Shown here piece after piece: positions 20,704-25,384 of a stretch of DNA of 64,000 nt (its first letter is position 1; every line of letters begins with the position of its first letter). The translations under genes were made by a program, and so were the position numbers. Under the pieces are notes generated by a model that did no database searches, had not been told where the DNA came from, and saw only the letters and a program-made list of their open reading frames with translations. Location: contig NZ_JAFDVD010000007.1 in NCBI RefSeq assembly GCF_016887965.1, forward strand, positions 124,001 through 188,000. Reading direction: 5' to 3'. The stretch is from Phycicoccus sonneratiae. Its GTDB lineage: Bacteria; Actinomycetota; Actinomycetes; Actinomycetales; Dermatophilaceae.

Positions 20704-21594
20704 TCAGCGCTCCTGGTCGGCGAGGATGTCGAGGAGGGGCTCGGCCGCGGTGGCCCGCAGTCGTCCGTCGTCGAGGGCGCGCAGCGCGGTGGCCCGGGCG
20801 AGCGCCACGTAGGTCCTCCGGATCTCGGGGGCGAGCCGGTCGAGCTCGCGCAGGTGGTCACCCACCGTACCGACGTCGCCGCGCGCGACGGGGCCGGTGA
20901 GGGCCGCGTCACCCAGCCGCAGCGCGTTGTCGAGCGCGGCGTGCATGAGCGGCCCGAGCAGGCGGCGGGGCTCGGGCACCCCTGCGCGGGTCAGCACCTC
21001 CATCGCCTCCGCCGTCAGGGTCACGAGGTGGTTCGACCCGTGCGCCAGCGCCGCGTGGTAGCCGACCCGGTCCTCCTCCCGCACCCACACCGGCTGGCCC
21101 CCCATCTCGAGGACGAGCGCCTCGGCGACCGGGCGCAGCACCTCGTCGGCCGTCACCCCGAAGGCGCACTCGGTGAGCCGGTCGAGGTCCATCGCGGTGC
21201 CGGTGAAGGTCATCGCCGGGTGGAGGGCCAGGGGCATCGCGTGGTGCTCGCGCACCGGGTCGAGGACGGTCGTGCCGTGGCGTCCGCTCGTGTGGACGAC
21301 GATCTGCCCGGCCTGCCAGGCGCCGGTGGAGGCCAGGCCGGCGACGAGGCCGCCGAGCGCGTCGTCCGGGACGGCGAGGAGCACGAGCTCGGCGCCGGCG
21401 ACGACGGTGGGCACGTCGGCGACGGGGACACCCGGCAGCAGGGCCTCGGCGCGCTCTCGGCTGGCGTCGGAGACGGCGTAGGCGCCGGAGACCCGGTGGC
21501 CGGCCCGGGCGAGGGCCGCGCCGAGGACCGCGCCGACCCGCCCCGCACCGACGACTCCGACGGTGAGGCGGGCGGGGTGCTCGAGGCCGTCCAC
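20704..21594 (-). CDS. Rossmann-fold DUF2520 protein (putative ketopantoate-reductase-like oxidoreductase)
   Basis: 296 aa: an N-terminal NAD(P)-binding Rossmann domain (VVGAGRVGAVLG about 13-24) and a C-terminal DUF2520 helical domain (about 140-280; HPAMTFTG, FGVTAD, HGSNHLVTL). The fold parallels ketopantoate and P5C reductases. It heads the panC-panD-nadB-nadC unit; the mycobacterial counterpart, Rv3603c, also precedes panC (from memory). No activity is established, but reduction of ketopantoate (PanE role) is a reasonable hypothesis. GTG start; TAGCGT lies 8 nt upstream. Confidence 0.85.
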   Translation of the reverse strand: MDGLEHPARLTVGVVGAGRVGAVLGAALARAGHRVSGAYAVSDASRERAEALLPGVPVADVPTVVAGAELVLLAVPDDALGGLVAGLASTGAWQAGQIVVHTSGRHGTTVLDPVREHHAMPLALHPAMTFTGTAMDLDRLTECAFGVTADEVLRPVAEALVLEMGGQPVWVREEDRVGYHAALAHGSNHLVTLTAEAMEVLTRAGVPEPRRLLGPLMHAALDNALRLGDAALTGPVARGDVGTVGDHLRELDRLAPEIRRTYVALARATALRALDDGRLRATAAEPLLDILADQER

Positions 21595-21625: not shown

Positions 21626-21631
21626 TAGCGT
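21626..21631 (+). promoter_or_regulatory. -10 hexamer of the MidA-like methyltransferase gene (leaderless)
   Basis: TAGCGT, 7 nt before the GTG at 21639. A GTG at 21630 would overlap this hexamer, so 21639 is preferred. Confidence 0.45.
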
Positions 21632-21638
21632 GCCGCGG

Positions 21639-22595
21639 GTGGACCCGGTGCCCTGGCGCGACGCGTGGCAGCAGGCCCTCTACGGCACGGACGGCTTCTA
21701 CCGGCGCGACGAGGGCCCCGCCGGGCACTTCACGACCTCGACGCACGGACCGCTCGGTGCGGTCCTCGCCGAGGCGCTCGGCCGGCTGGCCGACCGCGAG
21801 GGTGTCACCCACGTCGTCGACGTCGGGTGCGGCCGCGGCGAGCTGCTCGGCGCGCTGCACGCGGTCCGCCCCGACCTCGCGCTCACGGGCGTCGACGTCG
21901 TCGAGCGTCCGACCGCGCTCGCCGCAGGCATCCACTGGCTGCGCTCCCCCGGCGGCGCCACCCTGCCCGACGACCTCCGCGACCTCGACGACGTGCTCGT
22001 CGTCGCCCACGAGTGGCTCGACGTCGTGCCGTGCACCGTCGTCGAGGTCGACGGAGACGGCCTCCCGCACGAGGTCCTCGTCGACGCCGCAGCCGGTGCC
22101 GAGGAGGCGACCGGCCCCGTCACCGACGAGGACGCGGCGTGGTGCGCCGCGCACTGGCCGCTCGACGGGCTCGCACCCGGGTCGCGCGTCGAGGTCGGCC
22201 TCGCCCGCGACCGGGCGTGGGGCGACCTCGTGTCCCGGGTGCGCCACGGCACCCTCCTCGCCGTCGACTACGGGCACACCCGCGCCACCCGGCCCCCCGC
22301 CGGCACCCTCGTCGGCTACCGCGCGGGCACGACCGTCCCGGCGGTCCCCGACGGGACCTGCGACCTCACCGCGCACGTCGCCGTCGACACCCTCGAGCAG
22401 GACGAGCGGACGACCCAGCGGGATGCCCTGCGCGCCCTCGGCCTCACCGCCGCCGCGCCGGACATCGACCTCGCCCGCACCGACCCCCCGGCCTACCTCG
22501 CCGGGCTGGCCCGCGCCTCGGCCGTCCGCGCCCTCACCGACCCGGACGGTCTCGGCGGCTTCTGGTGGGTGCTGCGCCGGGTCGCGACCGGGTGA
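21639..22595 (+). CDS. MidA/NDUFAF7-like SAM-dependent methyltransferase (COG1565)
   Basis: 318-aa class I methyltransferase. SAM motif [15 protein letters not shown], then [15 protein letters not shown], which matches the NE-x-x-DA-x-P motif specific to COG1565, and near the end [21 protein letters not shown] and CDLTAHV, also family hallmarks. Mitochondrial NDUFAF7 dimethylates an Arg of NDUFS2, the NuoD homologue. Here the next gene is a NuoD paralogue with that Arg conserved. Somewhat shorter than NDUFAF7 (about 400). GTG 21639 was chosen by promoter position; GTG 21630 adds three residues. Confidence 0.85.
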
Positions 22596-22612
22596 CCCCC
22601 GGCGACGTGCGG

Positions 22613-22618
22613 CAGACT
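22613..22618 (+). promoter_or_regulatory. possible -10 hexamer of the nuoD-like gene
   Basis: CAGACT, 6 nt before the GTG at 22625, in the 29-nt gap after the methyltransferase. Confidence 0.3.
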
Positions 22619-22624
22619 GGCCGG

Positions 22625-23803
22625 GTGAGCCCCGACGCCCCCGCCGAGCCGCGCGCCCTCGACGTCGCCGTCGGTGCCGGGGGCCTCGCGACGGCCGACA
22701 TGGTGCTCAACATCGGCCCGCAGCACCCGGCCACGCACGGCGTCCTGCGGCTCAAGGTCGTCCTCGACGGCGAGCGCATCGTCCGCGCCGAGCCCGTCGT
22801 CGGCTACATGCACCGCGGCGCCGAGAAGCTCTTCGAGGTGCGCGACTACCGGCAGATCACCGTCCTCGCGAACCGGCACGACTGGCTCTCGGCGTTCTCC
22901 AACGAGCTCGGGGTCGTCCTCGGCGTCGAGGCGATGCTCGGGATGGAGGTGCCCGAGCGGGCCGTCTGGCTGCGCACCCTCCTCGCCGAGCTGAACCGGG
23001 TTCTCTCGCACCTGATGTTCCTCGGGTCCTACCCGCTCGAGCTCGGCGCCATCACGCCGGTCTTCTACGCCTTCCGTGAGCGCGAGGAGCTCCAGGCGGT
23101 CATGGAGGAGGCCTCGGGCGGCCGGATGCACTACATGTTCAACCGGGTCGGGGGCCTCAAGGAGGACGTCCCCGCCGGCTGGACCGGCCGGGTGGCCGAT
23201 GCGGTCGCGGCCGTGCGCCGCCGCCTGCCGGACCTCGAGTCGCTGCTCGTCGGCAACGAGATCCTCCTCGCCCGCACCCGGGGCGTCGGCGTCCTCGAGC
23301 CCGCCACCGTGCTGCAGTACGGCGTCTCCGGCCCGATCGCCCGCGCGAGCGGGGTCGACCTCGACCTGCGCCGTGACGACCCCTACCTCGCGTACGGCGA
23401 GCTCTTCGCCGCCGGCGGGCCCGGCCGGGTCGTCACCCGCACCGAGGGCGACTGCCTCGCACGCCTCGAGGTGCTCCTCGAGCAGGTGCACGTCAGCCTC
23501 GACCTCGCCGAGGCGTGCCTCGACCGGCTCCGGTCGCTGCCCCCCGGCCCGGTGAACCAGCGCCTCCCGAAGGTCCTCAAGGTGCCGGAGGGCGAGCGCT
23601 ACACCGCCACCGAGAACCCGCTCGGGCTCAACGGCTACCACCTCGTCTCGCGCGGGGAGAAGACGCCGTGGCGGCTCAAGCTGCGGTCGGCGTCGTTCGG
23701 CAACGTCCAGGTGCTCTCCGAGGTGCTGCCCGGGTGCCTCGTCGCCGACATGGTCGCCGTCCTCGGCTCGATGTTCTTCGTCGTCGGCGACGTCGACAAG
23801 TAG
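22625..23803 (+). CDS. solitary NuoD-like subunit (complex I 49-kDa / NDUFS2 family paralogue)
   Basis: 392-aa homologue of the quinone-site subunit of NADH dehydrogenase, with family landmarks [55 protein letters not shown] and VVGDVDK at the C-terminus. Quinone-site His38 (Thermus Nqo4 numbering, which coincides) is kept. The catalytic Tyr87 equivalent is Trp87 (RHDWLSAF). Arg64 of HRG aligns with the Arg methylated by NDUFAF7, and Arg84 near cluster N2 is kept. No other nuo gene is within 20 kb, so this is likely a paralogue of the operon-borne NuoD. It follows the COG1565 methyltransferase by 29 nt. Confidence 0.9.
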
Positions 23804-23912
23804 CCGCGAGCCGGGCGACGGGGTGCGCCGGGACCGGCCACCCGCTAGGTTCCCCGTGGGCGCCCGCCCGCTCCTCCACCGGCCCAGGCCGTCGACCACC
23901 AGGGGACCACCG

Positions 23913-24698
23913 ATGTCCAAGCCCACCGTGCTCGCCGGCACGCTCGCCCTCTGCGGCGCGGCCGCCCTCGTCGGCCTCTCCGCGACCCCGGCGGCGGCGG
24001 CCTCGCGCGACCTCGCCTACAGCTGCGACTGGGGCGTCGACGACGGCGACGGCGGGGTCGAGGGCAGCGGTGACGCCGCCTCGGCCACGTGGGACTCCGG
24101 CATCGCCGACGACCTCGTCGTCGCCACCGGCACCTCGGTGCCGCTGTCCCCGTACACCGGGACCATCACCCTCCCGACCCCCTTCGTCGACGCGCTGCGG
24201 GCCCAGGAGCGCCCGGACCTCGCCGGCGGTGGCTTCCACCTCGTCGTCGTCGACGAGAGCGAGCAGGCCTTCGACCTCGAGCTGCTCTACGGGCCGACCG
24301 CGGTGCCGGCCGAGGGCCCGATGACCCTGCAGGTCGAGGGTCTCGACGAGGTGTCCGTCGACACCCCGGAGCCGGGCACCTACACGCTCGTCACCGCGGA
24401 CTTCCAGCTCTTCGTCGAGGAGGACGAGAACACCGGCCTGGCCTGCGAGCTGACCGACGAGGGCGACCCGACGATCGACGCCTTCGAGGCCGTCGGTGAG
24501 GCCCCGACCACCACGCCGCCGGCCACGACCGCGCCGGCCGTGGCCCCCTCCCCGATCCGGCCGGCCCTCGTGCAGACCGACGCCGCCGAGGGCGGGTCCT
24601 CCGGTGGCCACGGGCTCGCGTGGGTCGGCGGTGCCCTCTCGCTGGCGCTCGCGGCCGGGCTGCGCCACGTCGTGCGCCGCGCGCCGCGCCGCCACTGA
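23913..24698 (+). CDS. secreted surface protein with C-terminal membrane anchor / degenerate sorting signal
   Basis: 261 aa, unrecognised domain. Signal peptide about 1-29 (LAGTLALCGAAALVGLS, then ATPAAAA). The mature domain (about 30-190) is acidic and beta-rich (DLAYSCDW, TGTITLPTPFVD, GTYTLVTADFQLFV). A Pro/Thr linker (APTTTPPATTAPA) is followed by LVQTD (219-223), a hydrophobic helix (about 234-250) and a basic tail RHVVRRAPRRH. This is the layout of a sortase sorting signal, with LVQTD in place of LPXTG. The sortase gene starts 5 nt downstream. A TAGGTT at about 23850 is a candidate -10. Confidence 0.75.
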   Translation: MSKPTVLAGTLALCGAAALVGLSATPAAAASRDLAYSCDWGVDDGDGGVEGSGDAASATWDSGIADDLVVATGTSVPLSPYTGTITLPTPFVDALRAQERPDLAGGGFHLVVVDESEQAFDLELLYGPTAVPAEGPMTLQVEGLDEVSVDTPEPGTYTLVTADFQLFVEEDENTGLACELTDEGDPTIDAFEAVGEAPTTTPPATTAPAVAPSPIRPALVQTDAAEGGSSGGHGLAWVGGALSLALAAGLRHVVRRAPRRH

Positions 24699-24703
24699 GG
24701 ACC

Positions 24704-25384
24704 GTGCCCACCCCGCGTCCGGAGGGCTCGCGCCGCGCGGTCCTCGCGGCGGCGGGCTCGCTCGCCCTCGGGTACCTCGCCGCCTGCTCCGACGGCCGCC
24801 CCGCCGCCACGACGACCCCCGGGACGGCCACACCCACACCGCCTTCGCCGCCCCCGGTGCCGACGCCGTCGAGCACCCCGGTCCCGACGACGACCGCCAC
24901 CCAGCGTGCGGCGAAGAACCCGAAGGGTCGACCCGACCACGTGGTCCTCGTGCGGGCCGACGGCGAGACGATCGTCGACGCCCCGGTGCGTCCGGTCGGC
25001 CTCGACGACCGCGGCATCCTCTCGCCGCCCGGCGGCGTGGTCGGCTGGTACGACGAGGAGGGATGGCCCCGGCCCGGCTACCCCGGGGCCTCGATCCTCG
25101 CCGGGCACGTCGGCACGCCCTCGAGCGGTGCCGACGTCTTCCGGCTCCTGCCGCGGGCCCGGCGGGGCGACCGCGTCACCGTGCGCTACGACTCCGGCGA
25201 CGTCGTGCACTTCGTCGTCGAGCGCTCGGCCGGGATGCCGAAGACGCAGACGCCCGAGGACGACTCCATCTGGGACGCCGGCAACCCCCGGCCGCTGCTG
25301 CGGCTCATCACCTGCGACCCCACCACCCCCTTGGAGAGCGGCCACTACGAGGGCAACTGGGTCCTCTGGGCCGACCTCGCCTGA
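24704..25384 (+). CDS. class F-like sortase
   Basis: 226-aa transpeptidase-fold protein. Catalytic His135 in ILAGHVG and Cys204 in RLITCDP are clear. The usual third residue, an Arg after the Cys strand, is not visible in the last 22 residues (DPTTPL to WADLA). The N-terminus is unusual: SRRAVLAAAG looks like a Tat motif and LAAC (25-28) like a lipobox, so the enzyme may be a Tat-exported lipoprotein; a plain membrane anchor is also possible. Residues about 30-70 are a Pro/Thr linker. GTG start 5 nt after the surface-protein stop, with GAGG spacing. Confidence 0.83.
   Translation: MPTPRPEGSRRAVLAAAGSLALGYLAACSDGRPAATTTPGTATPTPPSPPPVPTPSSTPVPTTTATQRAAKNPKGRPDHVVLVRADGETIVDAPVRPVGLDDRGILSPPGGVVGWYDEEGWPRPGYPGASILAGHVGTPSSGADVFRLLPRARRGDRVTVRYDSGDVVHFVVERSAGMPKTQTPEDDSIWDAGNPRPLLRLITCDPTTPLESGHYEGNWVLWADLA

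Follow-up and report, generated by a model that had tools for sequence, protein, structure and literature searches.

A displaced NuoD paralogue of a second, eleven-subunit complex I gene set in Phycicoccus sonneratiae is encoded beside a MidA-type methyltransferase

Introduction

A second nuo gene set that has no N-module, and whose nuoD2 gene is encoded apart, has already been published for Streptomyces (PMC3765725, PMC8388888; here and below, what we cite is limited to the available text of each source), and that text mentions neither a methyltransferase, nor Trp87 in NuoD2, nor nuoC2. Enzymes with the same eleven core subunits that likewise lack NuoEFG are the NDH-1 of cyanobacteria and plastids and the complex I-like enzyme of Desulfitobacterium (PMC11238625). 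In complex I of bovine, human, Pichia and Paracoccus origin, but not in that of E. coli, the NuoD-family subunit carries a symmetric dimethylation on an arginine, Arg85 in human NDUFS2 (PMC3750175), the human enzyme being NDUFAF7 (PMC3829151). Both the modification and NDUFAF7 have been described in mitochondria and Paracoccus, with the effect of the methylation itself, beside iron-sulphur cluster N2, as yet unsettled (PMC8042128). Here we analyse a stretch of 64,000 nucleotides (the window) from Phycicoccus sonneratiae (GCF_016887965.1, an assembly of 4.1 Mb in 33 contigs, G000; NZ_JAFDVD010000007.1, positions 124,001-188,000), in which the gene for a NuoD paralogue, NuoD2 (D2), follows that for a methyltransferase of the MidA/NDUFAF7 type. 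Among the publications listed by a literature search, none paired MidA with nuoD2 in actinobacteria.

With moderate confidence we propose that D2 is a subunit of a second, ancient actinobacterial complex I, composed of A2, B2, C2, D2 and H2-N2 and devoid of the NADH-oxidising NuoEFG, and that its Arg64 is dimethylated by the linked MidA-type enzyme. Electrons would enter this complex from a donor that we guess to be reduced ferredoxin, run along the two NuoI2 clusters and then N2 in NuoB2, and probably be handed on to menaquinone, with protons being pumped. Among the ancestors of the family and of Streptomyces and its relatives, the nuoD2 gene would have moved out of the nuo2 operon while keeping its link to the methyltransferase. 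In a reaction like that of NDUFAF7 on Arg85 of NDUFS2, this enzyme most likely dimethylates Arg64, which is close to N2, as the complex is being assembled.

Results

As the first-pass annotation of the window had reported, the methyltransferase gene directly precedes D2. Both are on the same strand and are separated by 29 bp. D2 matched PF00346 with 232.5 bits (gathering score 24) and, among the NCBIfam NuoD models, scored 369.7 with PRK06075 (cut-off 360), 372.9 with TIGR01962 (cut-off 459.35) and 376.9 with PRK12322 (cut-off 522). Large subunits of group-4 NiFe hydrogenases carry two CxxC nickel ligand motifs; there is no CxxC anywhere in the D2 translation. Alignment using Thermus numbering confirmed all four residues singled out earlier, with His38 and Arg84 retained, Arg64 in an HRG motif and Trp in place of the quinone-ligand Tyr87. 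An AlphaFold model of NuoD2 had a mean pLDDT (predicted local distance difference test score) of 74.5, was poor near residues 61-65 and 84-95, and was left unused.

D2 had been described as solitary, with no other nuo genes nearby, and this holds for its immediate neighbourhood. On the same contig (C24), however, where D2 lies at 146.6 kb, nuoA2-C2 and nuoH2-N2 are found roughly 90-113 kb away (C24:33.8-57.2 kb; Table 1). D2 is the sole subunit that these genes lack for an 11-subunit complex, and together they provide all 11 core subunits, each over its Pfam cut-off, so that D2 is not solitary but the missing NuoD of a second nuo set. NuoE, NuoF and NuoG were not recognised by eye among the open reading frames (ORFs) of C24:28-66 kb, with no profile search made. 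The other NuoD of this genome, at C24:83254-84120, lies within a separate main nuo operon (minus strand, about C24:70-86.5 kb; nuoA-I assigned by eye, L, M and N by PF00361) and reads HTG and MDY, corresponding to Thr64 and Tyr87. D2 is therefore one of two NuoDs, and the earlier suggestion of an altered complex-I-like module stands insofar as the genome has a nuo2 set besides its main one, with Trp87 in the NuoD of nuo2. Similarity to FpoD of the F420H2 dehydrogenase is weak (288.9 bits, far under the FpoD cut-off of 600), and reading the nuo2 stretches by eye showed no FpoF-like gene, although none was searched for.

We followed the set through 59 genomes of the family, 246 genomes of the phylum, 80 named loci and 20 deep loci of our own choosing from the phylum sample, counting D2 at ≥50% identity in the family and D2-type proteins of the phylum at ≥45% identity and E up to 5.6e-98. 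Orthologues with at least 73% identity occurred in 43 of the 59 family genomes, P. sonneratiae included, and Streptomyces D2 was 76-80% identical to that of P. sonneratiae. A second-type NuoH (E 1e-101 to 1e-95) accompanied D2 in 43/47 D2-positive family genomes, compared with 1/12 D2-negative ones, the latter being an assembly that is 81% complete (G033). Likewise, D2 lay inside an A2-B2-C2-D2-H2-...-N2 cluster in 14 of the 20 deep loci and apart from it in the other 6, and a tree of 72 NuoD sequences separated main from D2 copies (SH-aLRT 100, quick search). Side matches were seen in some relatives, both NuoD-like (28-31% identity; L053, L054, L055; G005, G015, G016, G046, G055) and NuoH-like (1e-47 to 1e-31), and these genes perhaps belong to a complex of the group-4 hydrogenase type.

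It is very improbable, in our view, that NuoD2 is an alternative subunit which mixes into the main complex I and has no complex of its own. An exchange between NuoL and NuoL2 and between NuoM and NuoM2 has been proposed for Streptomyces (PMC8388888), but two genomes of one genus (G009, G058) have A2, B2, C2 and H2-N2 contiguous, with a single NuoD (D2), NuoB and NuoH each and no main NuoB, NuoD or NuoH found (NuoE, NuoF and NuoG were not searched there). As D2 is the only NuoD found in these genomes it must serve the nuo2 set, and both appear to have kept the 11-subunit nuo2 and lost the main complex I.

The methyltransferase ORF opens with a GTG at 21630, with a second in-frame GTG at 21639, and its product matched PF02636 (Methyltransf_28) with 67.8 bits against a gathering score of 23.3. 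Using its AlphaFold model (mean pLDDT 92.7) in a fold search of the PDB, the top six matches were 4g67, 4f3n, 5zu0, 5ztz and two chains of 1zkd, with E from 1.3e-18 to 2.3e-15, while the seventh reached only 1.3e-5. The first four bear titles of COG1565 or MidA and 1zkd we take to be of the same family, so that the modelled fold is that of MidA and not that of another Rossmann methyltransferase. Across 17 aligned orthologues G68, R69, G70, E71, E128-V132, P134, C135, D213 and Y214 were invariant, and these presumably form the S-adenosylmethionine (SAM)-binding and catalytic motifs. In sequence the protein is distant from NDUFAF7 and MidA, and a phmmer search of PDB sequences gave no COG1565/MidA entry among 12 matches at E up to 10.

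Both genes were present in 44 of the family genomes and both absent in 11, with D2 alone in three (G036, G043, G051) and the methyltransferase alone in one (G033; Fisher 1.5e-8). In the phylum sample the corresponding numbers were 65 with both, 142 with neither, 28 with D2 only and 11 with the methyltransferase only (Fisher 1.4e-25), neither test being corrected for kinship. The two genes shared a contig in 42/44 family genomes, with the methyltransferase always upstream and on the same strand, and 41 of these pairs lay within 10.2 kb. In the phylum, 39/65 pairs were within 15 kb, with the methyltransferase upstream on the same strand in 5, convergent in 21, downstream on the same strand in 12 and otherwise placed in 1. 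A methyltransferase was also near D2 at 74/80 named loci; five of the remaining six have <2.6 kb upstream of D2, and the sixth (L139) retains panC, DUF2520 and D2. Among Streptomyces loci it was near D2 in 16/17, the 17th being a short contig. The pairing is thus widespread rather than confined to this genome, and looks old and real.

At many of the 80 named loci the order panC, DUF2520, methyltransferase, D2 recurs, and panC, DUF2520, folE and ftsH together make up a conserved block there. The pairing could accordingly be a synteny accident within a housekeeping block, with no shared function, and the 28/93 D2-positive phylum genomes in which no methyltransferase was detected are in keeping with this. 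However, both genes are absent together in 11/59 family genomes, they are linked in differing orientations and places, and in four mapped deep loci (of the downstream kind) the methyltransferase gene is at the nuo2 cluster, behind nuoN2 and in the same orientation, with none of the marker genes of the block matched. In G051, moreover, there is no PF02636 match in the genome while the panC-DUF2520-D2-folE-ftsH block is otherwise intact, and the methyltransferase is therefore a separable part. The gap between DUF2520 and D2 matches is 106 bases there and 75 bases in G036, both clean, unlike G043, where other ORFs lie between the two. We consider an accident of synteny quite improbable.

Arg64 had been presented in the first-pass annotation as a special feature of D2, but here the polarity was misread. 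Among four aligned PDB sequences HTG occurs in Thermus only, with HRG in the cyanobacterial one and in two 49-kDa complex I subunits; Arg64 is therefore the usual NuoD state, with the main actinobacterial Thr the exception, and was discarded as a distinguishing novelty. The contrast between the two paralogues is nonetheless general. All 21 main copies (our own and 20 from the family, including those of the D2-lacking G006, G013, G014, G035, G041, G045 and G049) have His38, Thr64 and Tyr87, whereas His38, Arg64 and Trp87 were found in 47/47 family D2 copies and 80/80 named loci, as well as in 28/28 and 20/20 phylum-sample loci, two sets that overlap. Across D2-type proteins of the phylum, Arg64 was present in 92/92 readable copies and Trp87 in 92/93. 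With a second nuoD in the genome, the Arg64/Trp87 pattern general among homologues and the pairing widespread, none of the three outcomes that the first-pass annotation had named as contradicting its reading was observed. The 76 methyltransferase-positive phylum genomes comprised 65 having D2 with Arg, 7 having another NuoD with HR (G060, G076, G087, G091, G101, G236, G242), 2 with Thr only and 2 that were unreadable (G234, in which no NuoD was found, and G298, which was cut).

Several observations weigh against the reading that we propose. Arg64 is present in 27/27 readable D2 of the phylum genomes without a detected methyltransferase (the 28th, G287, was cut) and in the methyltransferase-less family genomes G036, G043 and G051, so conservation of the arginine, which is needed whether or not the enzyme is there, is no proof of methylation, and we rejected a strict co-conservation of Arg64 with the methyltransferase. 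In two methyltransferase-positive genomes (G149, G264; L335, L338) no NuoD other than a Thr64-type one was found, and these are either incomplete assemblies or have another methyltransferase substrate. Of the phylum pairs, 24/65 are on different contigs and 2 more are 20-26 kb apart, and some are truly unlinked because they occupy different contigs of few-contig assemblies (G139, 6 contigs). Adjacency alone is also weak, because many named loci hold both genes in the long conserved panC/DUF2520/folE/ftsH block. Finally, on the side of the electron donor, KorA had no match in the D2-positive G009, G058 and G023 and strong matches in 8/12 D2-negative genomes, and co-occurrence does not support 2-oxoglutarate:ferredoxin oxidoreductase (KOR) as an obligatory donor to nuo2.

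The methyltransferase might alternatively serve the nuo2 complex in another way, by modifying a different residue or subunit (NuoB2, NuoC2 or NuoI2) or by acting mainly as an assembly chaperone. Its co-occurrence with the entire nuo2 set, its position after nuoN2 rather than nuoD2 in the four mapped deep loci, and the persistence of Arg64 where it is lost would all agree with this. We nevertheless hold it to be unlikely, since relatives with this fold act on NDUFS2 (MidA entries and a review on NDUFAF7), the displaced D2 has the methyltransferase near, and the residues adjoining Arg64 are not the same where the enzyme is missing, a difference that is not significant when kinship is taken into account. 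At position 66 (window 22820-22822), Phe occurs in 24/27 readable phylum D2 without the enzyme and in 3/65 with it, but on the tree only 2 of 6 pairs (D2 rows) or 3/8 (all rows) were informative (sign test p 0.5 and 0.25), too few independent events for Phe66 to be taken as a footprint of methyltransferase loss, and the contrast is suggestive only. In favour of the reading that we propose, E. coli, whose complex I is unmodified at this arginine, showed no PF02636 match in the control genome. By analogy with NDUFAF7, dimethylation of NuoD2 Arg64 by the MidA-type enzyme is likely.

The Tyr-His-Asp triad of the quinone site has been called strictly conserved (PMC9503403). The single D2-type protein with Tyr at 87 (G295) groups with other NuoD types, and on these alignments Trp87 is a property of the whole clade that the methyltransferase does not explain, being present with and without it. 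A Glu at the Asp139 position is found in most D2 and all 21 main copies and is therefore not D2-specific; among the 47 family D2 it is missing only in G002, G036, G043 and G054.

In these same four genomes D2 is present and the single NuoH belongs to the main type. B2-C2-I2-htpX is encoded in G036 (L092:7818-9233) and, beside korAB, in G002 (L094:9911-11159), while G043 has I2-C2-B2 beside korAB (L093:5-1448) on a contig that ends at I2. B2, C2 and I2 of all three genomes, and D2 of G002, were over Pfam cut-offs; the four N2 cysteines of B2 and the eight cysteines of I2 are kept in these three, and Arg64 and Trp87 in the D2 of all four (L049-L052). With htpX after nuoN2 in full sets but directly after I2 in G036 and G002, it seems that the membrane genes were excised. 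The four D2 cluster together on long branches (SH-aLRT 99), and that of G054, compared with 297 genomes of the order, had no match above 57% identity among those listed, the ordinary D2 level. At least three relatives thus apparently keep B2, C2, D2 and I2 without a membrane arm, as judged by NuoH count (NuoL2, NuoM2 and NuoN2 were not searched in the four genomes).

The retention of Trp87 and Arg64 in these relatives argues that the two residues serve N2 or the fold, and not only quinone. Together with Trp in 92/93 D2-type proteins at a site of the triad, it is consistent with a NuoD2 that does not reduce quinone, the Trp87 set passing electrons elsewhere or running in reverse to reduce ferredoxin. 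In opposition, every D2 read has retained His38 where that column was covered, and all pump subunits are present in the P. sonneratiae genome, so we regard this as somewhat unlikely.

Several neighbouring genes were also recorded. Divergent from nuoA2 in P. sonneratiae is korAB, encoding a 2-oxoacid:ferredoxin oxidoreductase (C24:57509-60468; L096:10509-13468), which was also near nuo2 genes in G010, G043 and G002. An HtpX-like M48 peptidase gene comes after nuoN2 (C24:32881-33768; L095:4881-5768), in G009 and at some deep loci as well; in the reduced sets its place is after nuoI2. On the 3' side of D2, the product of window 23823-24698 has a DUF6801 match below threshold, and an ORF with a sortase domain (window 24620-25384) overlaps this gene.

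Table 1. Positions of the methyltransferase, NuoD2 and its key codons, the nuo2 genes and the adjacent synteny marker
Feature	Position	Strand	Basis
MidA/NDUFAF7/COG1565-type SAM-dependent methyltransferase, 321 aa	window 21630-22595	+	PF02636, fold match, invariant motifs
NuoD2 (D2), NuoD/NDUFS2-family, 392 aa, GTG start, displaced from nuo2 operon	window 22625-23803	+	PF00346
His38 codon, quinone-site histidine (Thermus numbering), kept	window 22736-22738	+	alignment
Arg64 codon (HRG), equivalent to NDUFS2 Arg85, proposed methylation site	window 22814-22816	+	alignment
Trp87 codon, replaces quinone-ligand Tyr (Thermus Tyr87)	window 22883-22885	+	alignment
nuoA2	C24:56798-57163	-	Pfam over cut-off
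nuoB2	C24:56208-56789	-	Pfam over cut-off
nuoC2	C24:41022-41543	-	Pfam over cut-off
nuoH2	C24:40069-41025	-	Pfam over cut-off
nuoI2	C24:39446-40072	-	Fer4 models over cut-off
nuoJ2	C24:38925-39449	-	Pfam over cut-off
nuoK2	C24:38605-38928	-	Pfam over cut-off
nuoL2	C24:36731-38608	-	Pfam over cut-off
nuoM2	C24:35259-36740	-	Pfam over cut-off
nuoN2	C24:33808-35262	-	Pfam over cut-off
Rossmann/DUF2520 protein beside methyltransferase, synteny marker	window 20704-21594	-	PF10727, PF10728

Discussion

The nuo2 set and the pairing of its NuoD with a methyltransferase are real and conserved, while methylation of Arg64 is likely, and in this sense the first-pass observation was factually correct and its interpretation half right. 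The set described here is the same as Streptomyces nuo2 in lacking the N-module and in having nuoD2 apart; beyond the published accounts, we trace it through the phylum and find that deep lineages have D2 within the cluster. Both here and in Streptomyces the gene for the D subunit stands apart from the rest of nuo2, which sets these apart from the other 11-subunit complex I-like enzymes, and the aligned cyanobacterial NdhH has Tyr87 where D2 has Trp87. The methyltransferase shares its fold, the family of its proposed target subunit and an arginine at the equivalent position with human NDUFAF7-NDUFS2 and Dictyostelium MidA, but its gene lies next to that for one of two NuoD paralogues and its methylation of D2 is predicted.

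A broader scenario can be offered tentatively, and we think it rather doubtful as a whole. An ancestral complex I of the Trp87 type would have come down to Actinomycetota, along with a co-encoded MidA arginine methylase dedicated to tuning its N2; and in G002, G036, G043 and probably G054 the subunits B2, C2, D2 and I2, separated from the seven of the membrane, would work as a membrane-free iron-sulphur enzyme that keeps Arg64 and Trp87.

One genome that encodes both an Arg-NuoD with a linked methylase and a Thr-NuoD provides an internal control for the effect of the methylation, and laboratory streptomycetes probably offer the same control, given the methyltransferase near D2 at nearly all of the Streptomyces loci compared. 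Likewise, a Trp87 clade whose sets look intact where read allows a test of how necessary the quinone-ligand tyrosine is. If the broader scenario is true, the mitochondrial NDUFAF7-NDUFS2 pair would have an old bacterial counterpart outside the Proteobacteria.

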